Shown: piece after piece, positions 14,674 to 22,904 of the stretch
Position numbering within the stretch: the stretch's first letter is position 1
Layout of the letters: every line of letters starts with the position of its first letter
DNA from: Polaromonas sp.
GTDB taxonomy: Bacteria; Pseudomonadota; Gammaproteobacteria; Burkholderiales; Burkholderiaceae_C
Length of the DNA stretch: 64,000 nucleotides
NCBI RefSeq assembly: GCF_016185115.1
Contig: NZ_JACPOF010000024.1
Coordinates: 104,413-168,412 of the forward strand
Direction of reading: 5' to 3'
Program-made: the position numbers and the translations under genes
The notes under the pieces: generated by a model
Told to the model about the DNA's origin: nothing
The model's input: the letters and a program-made list of their open reading frames with translations, nothing else
Databases searched by the model: none

Positions 14674-15381
14674 TCAGGTAATTAAAAGCCGGTAACCTAC
14701 CGCTGTTTCGGTCAGCAGGTGCACGGGCTGGGCCGGGTCAGCCTCCAGCTTTTGCCGCAAATGGCCCATGTAGATGCGCAGGTAATGGCTCTGGTCGGCA
14801 TGCGACGGCCCCCAGACCTCGCGCAGCAGCTGGCGGTGCGTCAGCACACGGCCGGCATTGGCCATGAGCACGCTGAGCAGGCGGTATTCAATCGGCGTCA
14901 GGTGCACCTCGGCTCCCGCACGCCTGACGATGCGCGCCTGGCGATCCACCTCGACCTCACCGAAACGAAACACGGGGTCGGCTTCTTCGGCCGCCGCGCC
15001 ATCAACTGCTGCAGCGCGGGGGCGGCGCAGGTTGGCGCGCACCCGGGCCAGCAATTCGCCCACACCAAAAGGTTTGGTCAGGTAATCGTCTGCACCTGCA
15101 TCCAGCGCAGCAATCTTGTCGGCCTCATCGCTGCGCGCGGACAGCACGATGATGGGCACGGCAGACCAGCCGCGCACATCGCGAATCACATCCAGGCCGT
15201 CGCCATCGGGCAGGCCGAGGTCCAGCACCAGCAGGTCAGGCTTTCGTGTACCGGCTTCTGTCAGCCCCTTTTTTGCGGTGTCGGCTTCATGCACCTGCCA
15301 GCCCTCGGCCTCCAGCGCGCTGCGTACAAAGCGGCGGATCTGCGGCTCGTCTTCTATAACGACAACGACGGGAGTAGACAT
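14674..15381 (-). CDS. kdpE: Two-component response regulator KdpE
   Basis: 235-aa OmpR-type regulator. The receiver domain has acidic pocket EDE at residues 10-12, phosphoacceptor Asp54 in LLVLDLGLPDGDG, the switch residue in PIIVLSARS and Lys in DDYLTKPFG. A winged-helix DNA-binding domain follows (VHLTPIEYRLLSVLMANAGRVLTHRQLLREVWG ... SHYLRIYMGHLRQKLE). Phosphorylated by KdpD, it activates the kdp operon under K+ limitation or osmotic upshift. It lies 9 nt after kdpD and is the last gene of the operon, as usual. The bases just before its ATG (CTCCCCTC) do not resemble a ribosome-binding site, so translation may depend on coupling to kdpD. Confidence 0.93.
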   Translation of the reverse strand: MSTPVVVVIEDEPQIRRFVRSALEAEGWQVHEADTAKKGLTEAGTRKPDLLVLDLGLPDGDGLDVIRDVRGWSAVPIIVLSARSDEADKIAALDAGADDYLTKPFGVGELLARVRANLRRPRAAAVDGAAAEEADPVFRFGEVEVDRQARIVRRAGAEVHLTPIEYRLLSVLMANAGRVLTHRQLLREVWGPSHADQSHYLRIYMGHLRQKLEADPAQPVHLLTETAVGYRLLIT

Positions 15382-15390
15382 GAGGGGAGT

Positions 15391-18090
15391 TTATGTTTGT
15401 TCAAGCACAGGCGGTTCACGCCTTGGCAGCGTGACGCTGAACGCGGCCCCGCCACCCTCCGCATTGGTGGCATGAATACTGCCGCCGTGTGCATCAACCA
15501 CGGCCTTGCAGATGGCCAGCCCCAGGCCGACGCCGGGCGTCGCGGATTCAGCCTCGCCGCGCGTGAACTTGTCGAAGAGCGCTTCTTCATGCCCTGCCAG
15601 TTTTTGCGGCAGGCCGGGGCCGTGGTCGCGCACCGTCAGCACCAGTGCATCGGCGGTGACGCGCGCACTGACTTCCACAGGCGGGACGCCGTATTTGGCG
15701 GCGTTCTCAAGCAGGTTGACGAGCACACGCTCCATCAGCACAGCATCAAACTCCACCAGCGGCAGGTCTGCCGGGACATCAGTACGCACCTCCAGCCCGG
15801 CCAGCGCATGCCGCGCTGCGCGAATCGCCGAGCCCACCACTTCCTGGGCCGATTGCCATTCTTTTCGCAGGTTGACGCCGCCCTGCTGCAGGCGCGCCAT
15901 GTCGAGCAGGTTGGTGACCAGTGCGCTGAGCTGGCGTGCCTGCTGCGTGATGGACTGCGCTATGCCTGCCTGCGCCGCATCCAGCGGTGGTGCAGCGCGC
16001 TGGAGTGATTCAGCCAGCCCTATCAGCGCCGTCAGCGGCGTGCGCACGTCATGTGAAATGGCAGCCAGCAAGGTGTTGCGCAGGCGCTCTGACTCCATCT
16101 GCACCACGGCCTGTTGTGCGATCTCGACATAGTGCACACGCTCCAGCGCAATGGCGATCTGCCTGGCCAGCGTGTCGAGCTGCTGCAACTGCTCGGGTAT
16201 CAGCAGCCAGCGCGGCTGCGACGGCCTGAGGGCCAGCACGCCGCGCACCCGCATAGGCGCCCGCAAAGGGATGTAATGCCAGGGCTGGGCCGACAGCGTG
16301 CTCGTTGCGAGGCCGGCAGCCTGCTCATTGCGAAAAGCCCAATCGGCCACGCTGGTGTCAAAGTCGTCCGGCAGGCTGGCGGGAAAGGTCAGCTGGTCGT
16401 TGGCATCAGTGACCAGCACCAGCGCCTGCCCGCCAAAGTTGCGCTGCACGGCGGCCTCGCCCAGTTCGCAGACCTGTATGCTCATGAGCGCCGCAGACAA
16501 GTCACGCGTGAGTTCAAACAGCGACTGCGCACGCCGCTCGCGGCTGCTGGAGATGCGCGCCTCGAAGCGCAGGCCGGCCGTAAGCTGCCCGGTCAGCAGG
16601 CCGACCACGAGCATGACGGCGAATGTCACCAGGTACTGCACATCGCTGACGGCGAACGACAGGCGCGGCGCGACAAAAAAATAATCGAAGGCAGCAACGT
16701 TCAGAAAAGCGGCCAGCGCCGCCGGGCCGCGCCCGAACTTCAGCGCCACCAGCACAGTACCCAGCAAAAACAGCATGACGATGTTGGCCAGGTCAAACAG
16801 GTGCAGCAGCGGCGTGGCCAGCAGGGTGATGGCCACGCTGCTGGCCGCAGCCCAGGCATAACGCGGCACGCTGTCGTGCCAGGCCGCATTGGGCGTATCT
16901 TCAGGCGTACGCCGTACTGCACCGGCCAGGCGCCGCGCGCTGTCTGCGCGGCCGACCTCGACAATGTCCAGCGTCGGGGCCAGCAGCGCGAGTTTCCGTG
17001 TCATGCTGCGCCTGCCCCATGATTGCCAGCCTGTCAGTGCCGGTCTGCCCACCACCAGCGTGGCGCAGTTCAGCGTCTGCGCCTGCGACACCAGCGCCTG
17101 GGCAGCATCGGCACCCGTGAGCACCGCGGTACCTGCGCCCAGTTCTTCGGCGAGCTTGATCACCGCCAGGATGCGGTCACGCTCACCGGCCTTCAGCCGC
17201 TGCAGCTGCGGCGTCTCTACATAGGCCACATGCCAGCGCACATTGAGCTGGCCCGCCAGCCTTGCCGCTACACGCACCGTCTGCTCTGCTCCGGCACGCG
17301 GACCTATGCAGGCCAGCAGCGCGCCCTCTGTGTTCCAGACCGGCGCAATCGACTGCTCCACCCGGTAGCTACGCACATCGTCTTCAACATGCTCGGCCGT
17401 GCGGCGCAGTGCAATCTCGCGCAGCGCAATCAGGTTGCCCTTGCGGAAAAAGTTTTGCGCCGCGCGCTCAGCCTGCTGGGGCAGGTAGACCTTGCCGGCC
17501 TTGAGGCGTGCCATCAGTTCATCGGGCGTGACATCAACGAGGATGATCTCGTCTGCGTCATCAAGCACCGTGTCGGGCACCGTCTCATGCACACGTATGC
17601 CGGTGATGGCGCCTACGGTGCCGTTGAGGCTCTCAAGGTGCTGCACGTTGAGCGCCGACCACACATCAATGCCCGCCTCAAGCAGCTCCTGCACGTCCTG
17701 CCAGCGCTTGGAATGGCGAGAGCCGGGCGCGTTGCTGTGTGCCAGTTCATCAACCAGCAGCACGGCCGGTTTGCGTGCCAGCGCCGCATCAAGGTCGAAT
17801 TCTTTCAGCACATTGTTTCGATAGGGCAGCTCGCGCAGGGGCAACTGCTCAAGCCCCGCAAGCAACTCTTGCGTTTCGGCGCGGCCATGTGTTTCAACCA
17901 CGCCGATCAGCACCTCGCGCCCGGCCTTGCGCTCGCGCTGCGCTGCACTGAGCATGGCGTAAGTCTTGCCCACACCGGCGCTGGCGCCAAAGTAGATGCG
18001 CAATCGGCCACGGCGGCCGCGCGCATCCTCACCCCTGAGCTGCTCCAGCAGCTGGTCGGGGTCGGGGCGGGAGTCGGTAAACGTTGCCAT
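15391..18090 (-). CDS. kdpD: K+-sensing histidine kinase KdpD
   Basis: 899 aa from ATG 18090; the track adds a TTG codon. Domain order: N-terminal KdpD domain with Walker A GASAGVGKT (residues 35-43) and ETHGRAETQELL; a universal-stress-protein-like domain; four closely spaced transmembrane helices (DUF4118: VAITLLATPLLHLF, IVMLFLLGTVLVAL, AALAAFLNVAAFDYFF, LVTFAVMLVVGLLTG); a GAF-like region; HisKA with the phospho-His in ISHDVRTPLTALIG; and HATPase_c with N box and DHGPGLP / GVGLGLAIC. It senses low K+ and high ionic strength and phosphorylates KdpE. AAGG stands 5 nt before the start. The kdpC stop lies 26 nt upstream. Confidence 0.93.
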   Translation of the reverse strand: MATFTDSRPDPDQLLEQLRGEDARGRRGRLRIYFGASAGVGKTYAMLSAAQRERKAGREVLIGVVETHGRAETQELLAGLEQLPLRELPYRNNVLKEFDLDAALARKPAVLLVDELAHSNAPGSRHSKRWQDVQELLEAGIDVWSALNVQHLESLNGTVGAITGIRVHETVPDTVLDDADEIILVDVTPDELMARLKAGKVYLPQQAERAAQNFFRKGNLIALREIALRRTAEHVEDDVRSYRVEQSIAPVWNTEGALLACIGPRAGAEQTVRVAARLAGQLNVRWHVAYVETPQLQRLKAGERDRILAVIKLAEELGAGTAVLTGADAAQALVSQAQTLNCATLVVGRPALTGWQSWGRRSMTRKLALLAPTLDIVEVGRADSARRLAGAVRRTPEDTPNAAWHDSVPRYAWAAASSVAITLLATPLLHLFDLANIVMLFLLGTVLVALKFGRGPAALAAFLNVAAFDYFFVAPRLSFAVSDVQYLVTFAVMLVVGLLTGQLTAGLRFEARISSSRERRAQSLFELTRDLSAALMSIQVCELGEAAVQRNFGGQALVLVTDANDQLTFPASLPDDFDTSVADWAFRNEQAAGLATSTLSAQPWHYIPLRAPMRVRGVLALRPSQPRWLLIPEQLQQLDTLARQIAIALERVHYVEIAQQAVVQMESERLRNTLLAAISHDVRTPLTALIGLAESLQRAAPPLDAAQAGIAQSITQQARQLSALVTNLLDMARLQQGGVNLRKEWQSAQEVVGSAIRAARHALAGLEVRTDVPADLPLVEFDAVLMERVLVNLLENAAKYGVPPVEVSARVTADALVLTVRDHGPGLPQKLAGHEEALFDKFTRGEAESATPGVGLGLAICKAVVDAHGGSIHATNAEGGGAAFSVTLPRREPPVLEQT

Positions 18091-18116
18091 CAAGCCTTAT
18101 TAAATCCTGTTTCGGT

Positions 18117-18689
18117 TCAGCGTATCGCCTCAAGCGCAAGATTCAGTTTGAGCACGTTGACCTGTGGCTCACCCATAAAGGCGAGCAGCGGCGTATCGGT
18201 CTGCTGCTCGACCAGCGTCTGGACTTTTTCTGCAGCCACACCGCGCGCCCTGGCGACGCGCGCCACCTGGTAGCGGGCTGCAGCGGGGCTGATGTGCGGA
18301 TCAAGACCGCTGGCAGAGGCCGTCACCAAGTCCACAGGTACTGGCGCTGTGTTGCCGGGGTCAGCCGCACGCAGGGCTTCCACGCGGCCCTTGACTGCAT
18401 CGGCCAGCGCAGGGTTCAGCGGCCCCTGATTCGAGCCGCTGGATGCACCTGCGTTGTAGGGCATGGGGCCTGTGGCCGATGGGCGGCCCCAGAAGTGTTT
18501 GGGGTCGCTGAAGTTCTGCCCGATCAGCGCAGAGCCAACCGCTTTACCATCCTTGACGACGAGACTGCCTGCTGCCTGGGAGGGGAACAGCGTTTGCGCT
18601 GCGCCTGTCACCACCAGCGGGTAGGCCACGCCGGTCACGAGTGTGAGCACTGTGAAGAGGACCAGTGCTGGGCGAATTATTTTCGTCAT
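18117..18689 (-). CDS. kdpC: K+-transporting ATPase subunit KdpC
   Basis: 190 aa from ATG 18689, which has AAGGA 7-8 nt upstream; the track start at 18710 overlaps kdpB and lacks such a site. One N-terminal membrane helix ([25 protein letters not shown]) is followed by a periplasmic domain with the family hallmarks [49 protein letters not shown] and LVEQQTDTP. KdpC stabilises the KdpFABC complex. It lies between kdpB and kdpD in the standard order. Confidence 0.93.
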
Positions 18690-18706
18690 GTTGAGTCCTT
18701 GTGAGT

Positions 18707-20791
18707 TCATGAAAGGTTCACGGCGACCAGGAACAGGTCAATCACCTTGATGCCGATAAAGGGCACGATGAGGCCGCCCAGGCCATAGACAGCCAGGTTG
18801 CGGCGCAGCTGAGCCGCGGCACCAACGGCGCGGTACTTGACCCCTTTGAGCGCCAGCGGAATCAGAAACATGATGATCAGCGCGTTGAAGATCACAGCCG
18901 ACAAAATCGCCGACGACGGGCTGCCCAGCTGCATCACATTGAGCGCACCCAGCTGCGGGTAGGTCGTCACAAAAATCGCCGGGATGATGGCGAAGTACTT
19001 GGCTACGTCATTCGCAATCGAAAACGTCGTGAGCGAGCCGCGTGTCATCAGCAGCGCCTTGCCGGTCTCGACGATCTCCAGCAGCTTGGTCGGATTGGAA
19101 TCAAGGTCCACCATATTGCCGGCCTCCTTCGCAGCCTGCGTGCCGCTGTTCATGGCGACCGCCACATCGGCCTGCGCCAGCGCCGGCGCGTCGTTGGTGC
19201 CGTCGCCCGTCATGGCCACCAGCCGGCCTTCGGCCTGGTACTGGCGTATCAGCTTGAGCTTGTCTTCGGGCGTGGCCTCGGCCAGGAAGTCATCAACACC
19301 GGCCTCGGCGGCAATCGCAGCCGCAGTGAGTTTGTTGTCGCCCGTGATCATCACGGTCTTGATGCCCATGCGGCGCAGTTCGCCAAAGCGCTCCTTGATG
19401 CCGGCCTTGACAATGTCTTTCAGCTCGACCACGCCCAGCACCTGCTTGCCATCGCTCACGGCCAGCGGCGTGCTGCCGCGGCGCGAGACTTCATCGGACG
19501 CGCGCAGCACCTCGGCAGGCACGCTGCCGCCCAGTGCCTCGACATGTTTGCGCACGGCATCGACAGCGCCCTTGCGCAACTGGCGTGTGCTGCCGTCGTT
19601 CAGTTTGACGTCGACACCGCTCATTCTTGTTTGAGCGGTGAACGGAACCTCAGTCGTAGCGCCGACCAAAGCCTGAATCGCATTGGTCTTTTGCGCCAGC
19701 GTGACAATGCTGCGGCCTTCAGGTGTTTCATCGGCCATGGAGGCCTGCATTGCTGAGGTGGCGAGCGTCGCTTCAGTCACACCGGGTGCCGGCACAAAGC
19801 TTGAGGCCTGGCGGTTGCCGTGCGTGATGGTGCCGGTCTTGTCGAGCAGCAGCACATCGACGTCACCCGCCGCTTCAACGGCGCGACCCGAAGTGGCGAT
19901 CACATTGGCCTGCATCATGCGGCTCATGCCCGCCACGCCGACGGCAGACAGCAGGCCGCCAATGGTGGTGGGGATCAGGCACACCAGCAAGGCCACCAGC
20001 GCGGTGATGCTGACCACTGTGCCCGCGCCTGCAGCCTCGACGCTGAAGATGGAGAACGGCAGCAATGTCACCGTGACCACCAGGAAGACGATGGTCAGCG
20101 CCACCAGCAAAATCGTCAGCGCGATTTCATTCGGGGTCTTCTGGCGTTTGGCGCCTTCGACCATGCTGATCATGCGGTCGAGAAAAGACTCGCCAGGGTT
20201 GACGCTGATGCGCACCACCAGCCAGTCGGACAGCACGCGTGTGCCGCCGGTCACAGAGGCGAAGTCCCCACCAGACTCGCGGACCACAGGCGCAGATTCG
20301 CCGGTGATGGCACTCTCGTCAACCGAGGCCACGCCTTCGATGACTTCGCCGTCGAGGGGGATCATCTCGCCCGCATCGACCTGAACTACATCGCCCTTCC
20401 TCAGGTTTTCTGCCTGTTCAGGCAAAAAGGTAGCACCGTGTTTTGGCTCTTTCAGCTTTTTGGCCCAAGTGCTTTTCTTCAGGCCACGCAGTGAGGCAGC
20501 CTGCGCCTTGCTGCGGCCTTCGGCCAGCGCTTCTGCAAAGTTGGCAAACAGCACTGTGAACCAGAGCCAGATGGCGACGGCAAAGATAAAGCCCGCCGAA
20601 TCTGCGCCCTTGCCGCCTGGGGCCTGCAAGGCCTGCAGCCCGAGCAGCGTGGTCAGGATGCTGCCGATGAACACCACAAACATCACCGGGTTGCGCCACT
20701 GCACACGGGGGCTGAGTTTGGTAAACGAGGCGGCGATGGCCGGCTTTAGCAGGGCCGGGTCAAGAAGTACGAATGGTTTTTTGTTGGTCAT
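18707..20791 (-). CDS. kdpB: K+-transporting P-type ATPase catalytic subunit KdpB
   Basis: 694-aa P-type ATPase. The actuator motif TGES spans residues 163-166 with the regulatory Ser, phosphorylation Asp317 lies in DKTGTITHG, followed by the nucleotide domain and [19 protein letters not shown] hinge. Transmembrane segments include the early [20 protein letters not shown] pair and the [15 protein letters not shown] helix with the Pro kink. It couples ATP hydrolysis to K+ movement through KdpA in the inner membrane. The start is 16 nt after the kdpA stop. Confidence 0.95.
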
Positions 20792-20807: not shown

Positions 20808-22607
20808 TTATTTCATGGGCCACAGCATCAGGTGCTCGACCACCGGGCCCAGGGCCAGCGCAGGAACATAGTTCAGCAGGCCGACCAGCAGCACCGTGCC
20901 GATCAGCAGGGTGACAAACAGCGGGCCGTGCGTCGGCATGGTGCCGCCGGTGACAGGCAAGCGCTTCTTGGCAGCCAGCGCACCTGCAATCGCCAGCACA
21001 GGCACGATGACGCCGAAGCGGCCCAGCCACATCACCATGCCCAGCAGGGTGTTGTAGAAGGGTGTGTTGGCCGAGAGGCCTGCAAAGGCGCTGCCGTTGT
21101 TGTTGCCGGCAGAACTCAGCGCGTAGAGGATTTCAGAAAAGCCGTGCGCGCCGGGGTTGGCAATGCCGGCCTTGCCCGCAGTGGCCAGCACGGCAATGGC
21201 TGTGCCTGCCAGCACCAGGATGGGCGTGACCAGAATGGCGATCGAGGTCAGCTTCATCTCGTGCGACTCGATCTTCTTACCCAGGTATTCAGGCGTGCGG
21301 CCTATCATCAGCCCCGAGATGAACACCGCCAAAATGGCAAAGATCAGCATGCCGTAAAGGCCGGTGCCGACACCGCCGAAGACGACTTCGCCGAGCTGCA
21401 TCATCACCAGCGGCACCAGCCCACCTATTGGCGTCAGGGAATCGTGCATCAGGTTGACAGCGCCGCATGAGGCAGCCGTTGTGATCACGGCAAACAGGCT
21501 GGAGGCATTGATGCCGAAACGAACTTCCTTGCCTTCCATGTTGCCGCCGGCCTGCAGTGCGCTGCTGGCCCGATCTACACCCACCGATGTAATCAGCGGA
21601 TTGCCAGCCTGCTCGGCCGGCGTGATGACAGCCACGGCAATCACAAACATCACGGTCATGGCGGCCAGCACGGCCCAGCCCTGACGCTGGTCGCCCACGC
21701 TGCGGCCGAACGCAAAGCACAGCGCGGCAGGAATCAGAAAGATGGACAGCATCTGCACAAAGTTGCTGAGCGCAGTCGGGTTCTCATACGGGTGGGCCGA
21801 GTTGGCATTGAAGAAACCGCCGCCGTTGGTGCCCAGCATCTTGATGGCCTCCTGCGAGGCAACCGGGCCCATGGCCAGCGTCTGTTTGTCGGTCTTCGCG
21901 TCTTCCATCACCGCATTGCCCGTGGCGTCTTTCAGCGGCTGGCTGTCGGGGCCGTTTTTGGCGACCTGGTAGTTGTTGACCTCCAGCGTCGTCACGTCCT
22001 TGTAGCTGTCAAAGTTCTGGATCACGCCCTGGCCGACCAGGAAGATGGCAAACACCAAAGACAGCGGCAAGAGCAGCCAGGCCGTGATGCGGGTGATGTC
22101 CACCCAGAAGTTGCCGATCACGCCTGTCGATTTGGCCGCAAAGCCGCGGAACAGCGCAAACACCACGGCGATGCCGGTGGCCGCCGAGAAGAAGTTTTGC
22201 CCGGTCAACGCCAGCATCTGAGTGAGGTAGCTCATGGTTGATTCACCGGCATAACCCTGCCAGTTGGTGTTGGACGCAAAGCTGATGGCGGTGTTGAAAG
22301 CCGAGTCAGGCGTAATGTTGGCCATGCGGGCCGGGTTGAGCGGCAGCCAGACCTGCACACGCTGCATCAGGTAGACGACGGCAACGCCCAGCAGGTTGAA
22401 GGCCAGAAGCGCCAGCGCGTACTGCGCCCAGTTCATGGACTTGCCGGCCGATGTGCCGGCCAGTTTGTAGAGCGGCGCTTCGAGCCTGTGCATCCAGCCG
22501 GGCAGATTGCCCGAGGCGATGCGCGTGAGCCAGATGCCGAGCGGCCAGGACACCAGCAACAAAACACCAAGGAAAAGGGCCAGCAAGCCCCAGGCATTAC
22601 CGGTCAT
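20808..22607 (-). CDS. kdpA: K+-transporting ATPase channel subunit KdpA
   Basis: 599 aa from ATG 22607; the track begins one TTG codon earlier. About ten transmembrane helices with the four degenerate K+-filter repeats of the SKT superfamily; readable pore-like parts are [35 protein letters not shown] and [11 protein letters not shown]. KdpA binds and conducts K+ with very high affinity. Its ATG overlaps the kdpF stop by one base (TGATG), so translation is coupled to kdpF. Confidence 0.95.
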
Positions 22608-22705
22608 CAAAACTCCTCGGCGCAGATCAGCGCGTAGACCAGGTAGGCCAGCAGCAGGACGGCGCAGACGCCGCCGAAGCCGTACAGGATGTCAAGGCTG
22701 ATCAT
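22607..22705 (-). CDS. kdpF: KdpF, small subunit of the K+-transporting ATPase
   Basis: 32-codon ORF absent from the supplied track, translated by hand: it begins [20 protein letters not shown] and ends in CAEEF. A single hydrophobic helix with a short polar tail matches KdpF, the lipid-like stabilising peptide of KdpFABC, in size, topology and place directly before kdpA. The stop TGA shares a base with the kdpA start, and its own ATG overlaps the stop of the upstream 34-codon ORF as ATGA. Confidence 0.88.
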
Positions 22706-22806
22706 GAGCGGCCTCCTTCGGGCTTTTCAAGCTTCTGGAAGCCCCAGACCAGCAGCACCATCACGCCCCAGAGGGCGGCGACTCCAAATATGAATGCGAT
22801 ATCCAT
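22702..22806 (-). CDS. 34-aa predicted membrane microprotein ahead of kdpF
   Basis: Not in the ORF track. The 34 codons start MDIAFIFGVAALWGVMVLLV and end [14 protein letters not shown]. One hydrophobic helix of about 20 residues is followed by a basic, polar tail, so a single-pass inner-membrane peptide with the tail in the cytoplasm is expected. A GGAAAGAAG Shine-Dalgarno stands about 5 nt before the ATG. Its stop overlaps the kdpF start by 4 nt (ATGA), so it is the first gene of the operon and may be needed for kdpF/kdpA translation. It is not KdpF, which follows. I know no function; a regulatory or extra structural peptide of the Kdp pump is inference. Confidence 0.65.
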   Translation of the reverse strand: MDIAFIFGVAALWGVMVLLVWGFQKLEKPEGGRS

Positions 22807-22807
22807 G

Positions 22808-22841
22808 AACTTCTTTCCATCTGAATTGATGAAAGGAAGTT
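22808..22841 (-). promoter_or_regulatory. RBS-masking hairpin in the kdp leader
   Basis: In the mRNA sense AACTTCCTTTCATC faces GATGGAAAGAAGTT around a 6-nt loop: 14 positions, with one mismatch and one G-U pair. The 3' arm contains the GGAAAGAAG ribosome-binding site of the 34-aa ORF, and the AUG follows one base later. The structure would close the entry site of the whole translationally coupled kdp operon. It could act as an RNA thermometer, ion- or protein-controlled switch, or simply as a translational brake. Confidence 0.5.
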
Positions 22842-22884: not shown

Positions 22885-22904
22885 GTATAAAAAAAGCGTA
22901 AAAA
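22885..22904 (-). promoter_or_regulatory. Candidate KdpE operator upstream of kdp
   Basis: Read on the minus strand this is a T-rich tract, TTTTTACGCTTTTTTTATAC, about 80 nt before the first ORF. It resembles from memory the T-rich KdpE site of the E. coli kdpFABC promoter (TTTATAC and TTTACA-like half sites). A fit to the KdpE consensus was not computed. Confidence 0.35.

Follow-up and report, generated by a model that had tools for sequence, protein, structure and literature searches.

A conserved small protein encoded with kdp: a probable, overlooked accessory subunit of the textbook Kdp pump

Results

The kdp operon and its first gene

The window, a stretch of 64,000 nucleotides from Polaromonas sp. 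(contig NZ_JACPOF010000024.1), carries a kdp operon on its minus strand. An ORF of 34 codons had been predicted at the head of this operon. The ORF, for which we use the working name X, is real and runs from 22806 to 22702 on the minus strand with a TGA stop. The features of the locus are as follows.

22885 to 22904, minus strand: T-rich KdpE-type box TTTTTACGCTTTTTTTATAC (fits 20/20 positions of a pattern based on the box upstream of E. coli kdpF)
22808 to 22841, minus strand: 5'-UTR hairpin over the Shine-Dalgarno of X (folding, genus level)
22810 to 22818, minus strand: Shine-Dalgarno-like GGAAAGAAG of X (sequence)
22702 to 22806, minus strand: X, gene 1 of the kdp operon, for a predicted single-helix membrane protein of 34 aa (start ATG, stop TGA)
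22702 to 22705, minus strand: ATGA in which X stops and kdpF starts (sequence)
22607 to 22705, minus strand: kdpF, 32 aa (PF09604, 30.3 bits, cut-off 21.2; TIGR02115, 28.9 bits, cut-off 26.85)
20808 to 22607, minus strand: kdpA (TIGR00680, 759 bits; its ATG overlaps the kdpF stop by one base)
18707 to 20791, minus strand: kdpB (ORF; as a tblastn query it located kdpB in related operons)
18117 to 18710, minus strand: kdpC (ORF; tblastn in related operons)
15391 to 18093, minus strand: kdpD, start codon provisional (ORF; PF02702 match in its own genome, E 2.3e-97)
14674 to 15381, minus strand: kdpE, response regulator (ORF; tblastn in related operons)

Both junctions described in the original prediction were found: the stop of X and the start of kdpF (22705 to 22607) overlap by four nucleotides in ATGA, and kdpF ends and kdpA begins within TGATG at 22607, with one base in common. 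The four-nucleotide overlap recurs in 107 of 213 loci and a one-nucleotide overlap in 18 further loci; judged from the sequence of the junction, translation of kdpF may be coupled to that of X. The Shine-Dalgarno claimed for X is present but in this genome amounts only to the weak GGAAAGAAG; GGAG, AGGA or GAGG precedes X in 158/213 loci, compared with 7% at control positions. No terminator-like site was found next to X, and an Rfam search of the window gave no match.

The T-rich box TTTTTACGCTTTTTTTATAC is located 78 nt upstream of the start of X (about 75-84 nt across the genus) and resembles the sequence before E. coli kdpF, TTTTTATACTTTTTTTACAC. In E. coli, KdpE is described as binding a [Tn]-rich region within the kdp promoter (PMC5716572). 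By this resemblance, X stands where kdpF stands in E. coli. Between the box and X, the hairpin over the Shine-Dalgarno had a mean folding z of -2.7 at 27 genus-level loci, compared with -0.6 and -0.4 in other groups. Its covariation was modest (66% of cells paired versus 63% after shuffling and 47-54% after sliding, in a plain alignment), and RNAalifold found no consensus structure in the plain 5' UTR alignment. Placed in this way at the head of the operon, the hairpin could act as an RNA switch for the kdp genes. The same hairpin occurs in a Rhodoferax relative (L137), where it stands before kdpF.

Distribution of X

We collected kdpA loci via KdpA from genomes related at genus, order, class and phylum level, from contigs of named genomes and from annotated plasmids, which yielded a sample of 256 usable loci. 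X profiles, built for this count from a member set wider than the Burkholderiales, scored at least 10 bits at 218 of them. In 2,270 dinucleotide-shuffled upstream regions, a single match reached at least 10 bits and none reached at least 15 bits. Some divergent members were initially chosen by eye (position and pattern) and part of these later joined the profile; the significance of the profile derives from the shuffle control, not from the seed set. A profile made from Burkholderiales only already detected X before kdpF in many alphaproteobacteria.

The expected occurrence of X in other Burkholderiales was thus borne out, and its spread is far wider than had been supposed. Carriers among the sampled kdpA loci include beta-, gamma- and alphaproteobacteria as well as Deinococcus (24 and 22 bits) and Streptomyces (21 and 20 bits), the phyla outside the proteobacteria being represented by a few plasmid records. 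In addition, 164 plasmid records of rhizobia and Azospirillum matched a rhizobial X. A tblastn search of plasmids with the Streptomyces and Deinococcus peptides gave no match; these queries are probably too short.

We also searched 55 whole genomes in six frames. Matches with E <1e-4 lay at kdp loci only, a result whose informative half is the silence elsewhere, as some of the kdp loci had fed the profile; genomes without kdpA among the 55 gave no match below E 1e-3. In this search X is encoded with kdp and found only with kdp, as would be expected of an accessory subunit.

X was not found at the kdp loci of E. coli, Klebsiella, Pseudomonas-like bacteria and Moraxellaceae, and an ORF scan upstream of E. 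coli kdpA returned kdpF alone. The Kdp structure papers that we found describe the E. coli complex. Because E. coli kdp is without X, these structures could not have shown it. At the kdp loci of Niallia (L259, upstream of kdpF) and Listeria (L249, 867-959), other short membrane ORFs precede kdpF (MEDLLMLFIIGMSLTSMYELIKW... and MDFFMLGILIFSYFMLKMIVHWC..., respectively). The X profile does not recognise them, and they are possibly divergent forms of X.

X is a protein-coding gene

Conservation of the reading frame in relatives had been set beforehand as the check on the prediction. The frame is conserved, and residues are kept while synonymous sites vary. Across 27 distinct genus-level copies, pN/pS of the X frame was 0.41 (95% CI 0.30-0.55), whereas the other two frames of the region gave 0.92 and 1.26 and shuffled alignment columns gave 0.88 (minimum 0.65). 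kdpF (0.23) and the first 200 codons of kdpA (0.25) are under stronger selection than X. The residues D2, L12-W13 and L26 are near-fixed in the genus, and D2 and L26 are also the near-invariant positions of family-wide alignments. X precedes kdpF at all examined genus-level kdp loci, L137 excepted. Purifying selection on the protein sequence, as seen here, would be expected of a small single-helix accessory subunit.

Could X nevertheless be a spurious ORF, open by chance or through high GC? It is short, no family model covers it and its Shine-Dalgarno is weak in this genome. Against this, 218/256 loci were positive compared with 1 in 2,270 shuffled regions, pN/pS is far under 1, and the peptide pattern recurs in distant phyla. 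The shuffle control, pN/pS and the cross-phylum pattern together rule out a chance ORF, a reading to which we assign next to no probability. X is a genuine protein-coding gene.

Predicted structure and relation to KdpF

The family consensus is MDxxYLxxxxxFFxLxxxLxxxCxRL followed by a tail of variable length, and the alignment is almost gap-free. One hydrophobic helix had been proposed for X. In agreement, AlphaFold2, given an alignment of proteins from the window and the genome loci only, predicted a single helix over residues 2-27 with a mean pLDDT of 87. The proposed basic tail proved mildly basic, with K25, K28 and R33 offset by E27 and E30. The N-terminus carries a net charge of -0.9 and the tail one of +1.4, and from this negative N-terminus and positive tail the positive-inside rule suggests an N-out/C-in topology. 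Like KdpF, X combines a place in the kdp operon with a single predicted transmembrane helix.

X had no match in Pfam or NCBIfam at E 10, nor did 89 family members at E 0.1, and a PDB sequence search with X and its family gave no match. We considered whether X arose as a second KdpF that has since diverged, as it equals KdpF in size and shares with it the operon and the possession of one helix; at L271, an X-like ORF stands alone before kdpA and no KdpF is recognised. However, X fails the KdpF family models PF09604 and TIGR02115 (no match above cut-off), the motifs differ (MD...C.RL in X, YL..AL..PE.F in KdpF) and both genes are present at most loci. The X-KdpF profile-profile score of 15.5 (probability 27%) lies under the best shuffled score of 16.4, with 1 of 60 shuffled profiles reaching the X-KdpF score or more. 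With a score that is not significant against shuffles, we rejected X as a KdpF paralogue and regard this origin as very improbable.

The gene had been called overlooked. It lacks a family model and is mostly unannotated or a 'hypothetical protein' in plasmid records of Variovorax, Rhizobium and Azospirillum (the gene table being incomplete), but one RefSeq record contains it under a misleading name. WP_212667346.1 of Mycetohabitans endofungorum (L253, 876-980) is X, with 34 aa and a four-nucleotide overlap with kdpF, and bears the product name 'potassium ABC transporter ATPase'. This name is wrong, since X is no ABC protein and no ATPase, and we found no family model or paper behind it. We found no description of X in the literature searched for small kdp-encoded proteins and for 'kdpX'. 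A Caulobacter paper recovered only an unannotated kdpF, and in the main text of a Deinococcus sORF paper we found one mention of kdp and no small kdp protein.

Operon rearrangements and loss of X

The place of X in the operon shifts while X stays adjacent to kdp genes. The order is kdpF-X-kdpA-kdpC-kdpB at L272 and L275, kdpF-kdpB-X-kdpA-kdpC at L269 and L270, and kdpB-X-kdpF-kdpA-kdpC in Deinococcus (L247, L257). For the second of these orders, X of L270 taken by itself reaches just 10 bits, and that of L269 was identified in L244, a shorter locus. Both X and a 26-aa kdpF between kdpB and kdpA of Deinococcus are missing from the plasmid gene table. The published description of the Deinococcus operon, kdpBAC-D-N, names no kdpF there (PMC5716572). 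In the Rhodoferax relative (L137, 1838-2003), X is cleanly lost and kdpF uses the former UTR and ribosome site of X. At another locus (L016, upstream of kdpA), the C-terminus of kdpF of genome G014 is altered (...ICADLR) and X of the same operon is intact.

These arrangements bear on the suggestion that X is a leader peptide, an ORF that brings ribosomes to kdpF and kdpA while the peptide itself is idle. The ATGA overlap at half of the loci, the first place of X behind the KdpE box and, in this genus, the hairpin over its Shine-Dalgarno are what such a leader would present. However, a 5' leader should always be the first ORF, and in the Deinococcus, F-X-A and F-B-X-A operons other genes precede X. 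Conservation of its amino acids goes well past what an open frame alone needs, with variation at synonymous sites, and the relative without X keeps an ordinary kdpF start behind the same UTR. In the window, the X-kdpF region as a whole showed no excess of RNA structure (z -0.6). The natural operon rearrangements thus speak against a pure leader, and we consider coupling as the main role of X decidedly unlikely.

A different single-helix protein, MgrB, regulates PhoQ, and X might act on the sensor kinase KdpD in the same way. KdpD was present in 79/80 tested kdp-bearing genomes (most, not all, of them X-positive), and in mycobacteria a two-hybrid assay showed binding of KdpF to KdpD, though KdpF hardly alters kdp expression (PMC3618439). 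The position of X, on the other hand, tracks the pump genes, especially kdpA, and not kdpD. X is retained in Deinococcus radiodurans despite a split KdpD (PMC5716572), and one X-bearing genome (G656, locus L231) had no KdpD match, which counts weakly. Regulation of KdpD by X is, on balance, unlikely.

Discussion

Our preferred reading is that X serves the Kdp complex as an accessory subunit or regulator with a single helix, and that coupling is a by-product; we give this reading a probability of roughly two in three. The original prediction had named an additional small subunit or regulator of KdpFABC, and this part is supported to the extent that protein-level selection, conservation across several phyla, linkage to kdp only and shifting operon positions all point to it. 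The textbook Kdp pump probably has, in X, an accessory subunit that went unnoticed. The KdpE-controlled kdp mRNA would yield X together with KdpF, KdpA, KdpB and KdpC. According to the model and the charge pattern, X would sit in the membrane by one helix, with the N-terminus (MD...) outside and the K/R-bearing C-terminus inside. It would bind the pump as a fifth, accessory subunit and may aid its assembly or stability, or tune its activity, as KdpF does. Coupling to kdpF via ATGA is likely a by-product and not the reason why X is kept.

X is not essential to the pump. Some Kdp pumps, that of E. coli included, work without X, and the clean loss in L137 likewise indicates that the pump can do without it. 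A more far-reaching view is that X is an ancient subunit, shared across phyla but absent from the lineages of E. coli and Pseudomonas, that Kdp is a five-subunit pump in most bacteria and that the E. coli KdpFABC work describes a reduced complex. We hold this view tentatively and put it at a little under even odds.

Kdp serves as a model system both of K+ homeostasis and of hybrids between P-type ATPases and channels. If X is a subunit, Kdp assays and structures from rhizobia, Burkholderiales, Streptomyces and Deinococcus need to include the X gene, and deletions or complementations made as 'kdpFABC' may have omitted it. With a family model for X, the RefSeq misnomer would be replaced and hundreds of genes that now lack annotation would be recovered.

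Several very small one-helix proteins are partners or regulators of larger membrane complexes, among them CydX, AcrZ, MgtS and MgrB. Their partners differ from the Kdp complex proposed for X, and they show no sequence relation to it. The closest comparison is with KdpF, a subunit of the E. coli pump. KdpF is a proposed stabiliser of the complex, a role that X may share. The two have no significant sequence or profile similarity, and X adjoins kdpF. Like X, KdpF has about 30 aa and one helix, and it is encoded in the same operon and on the same mRNA.
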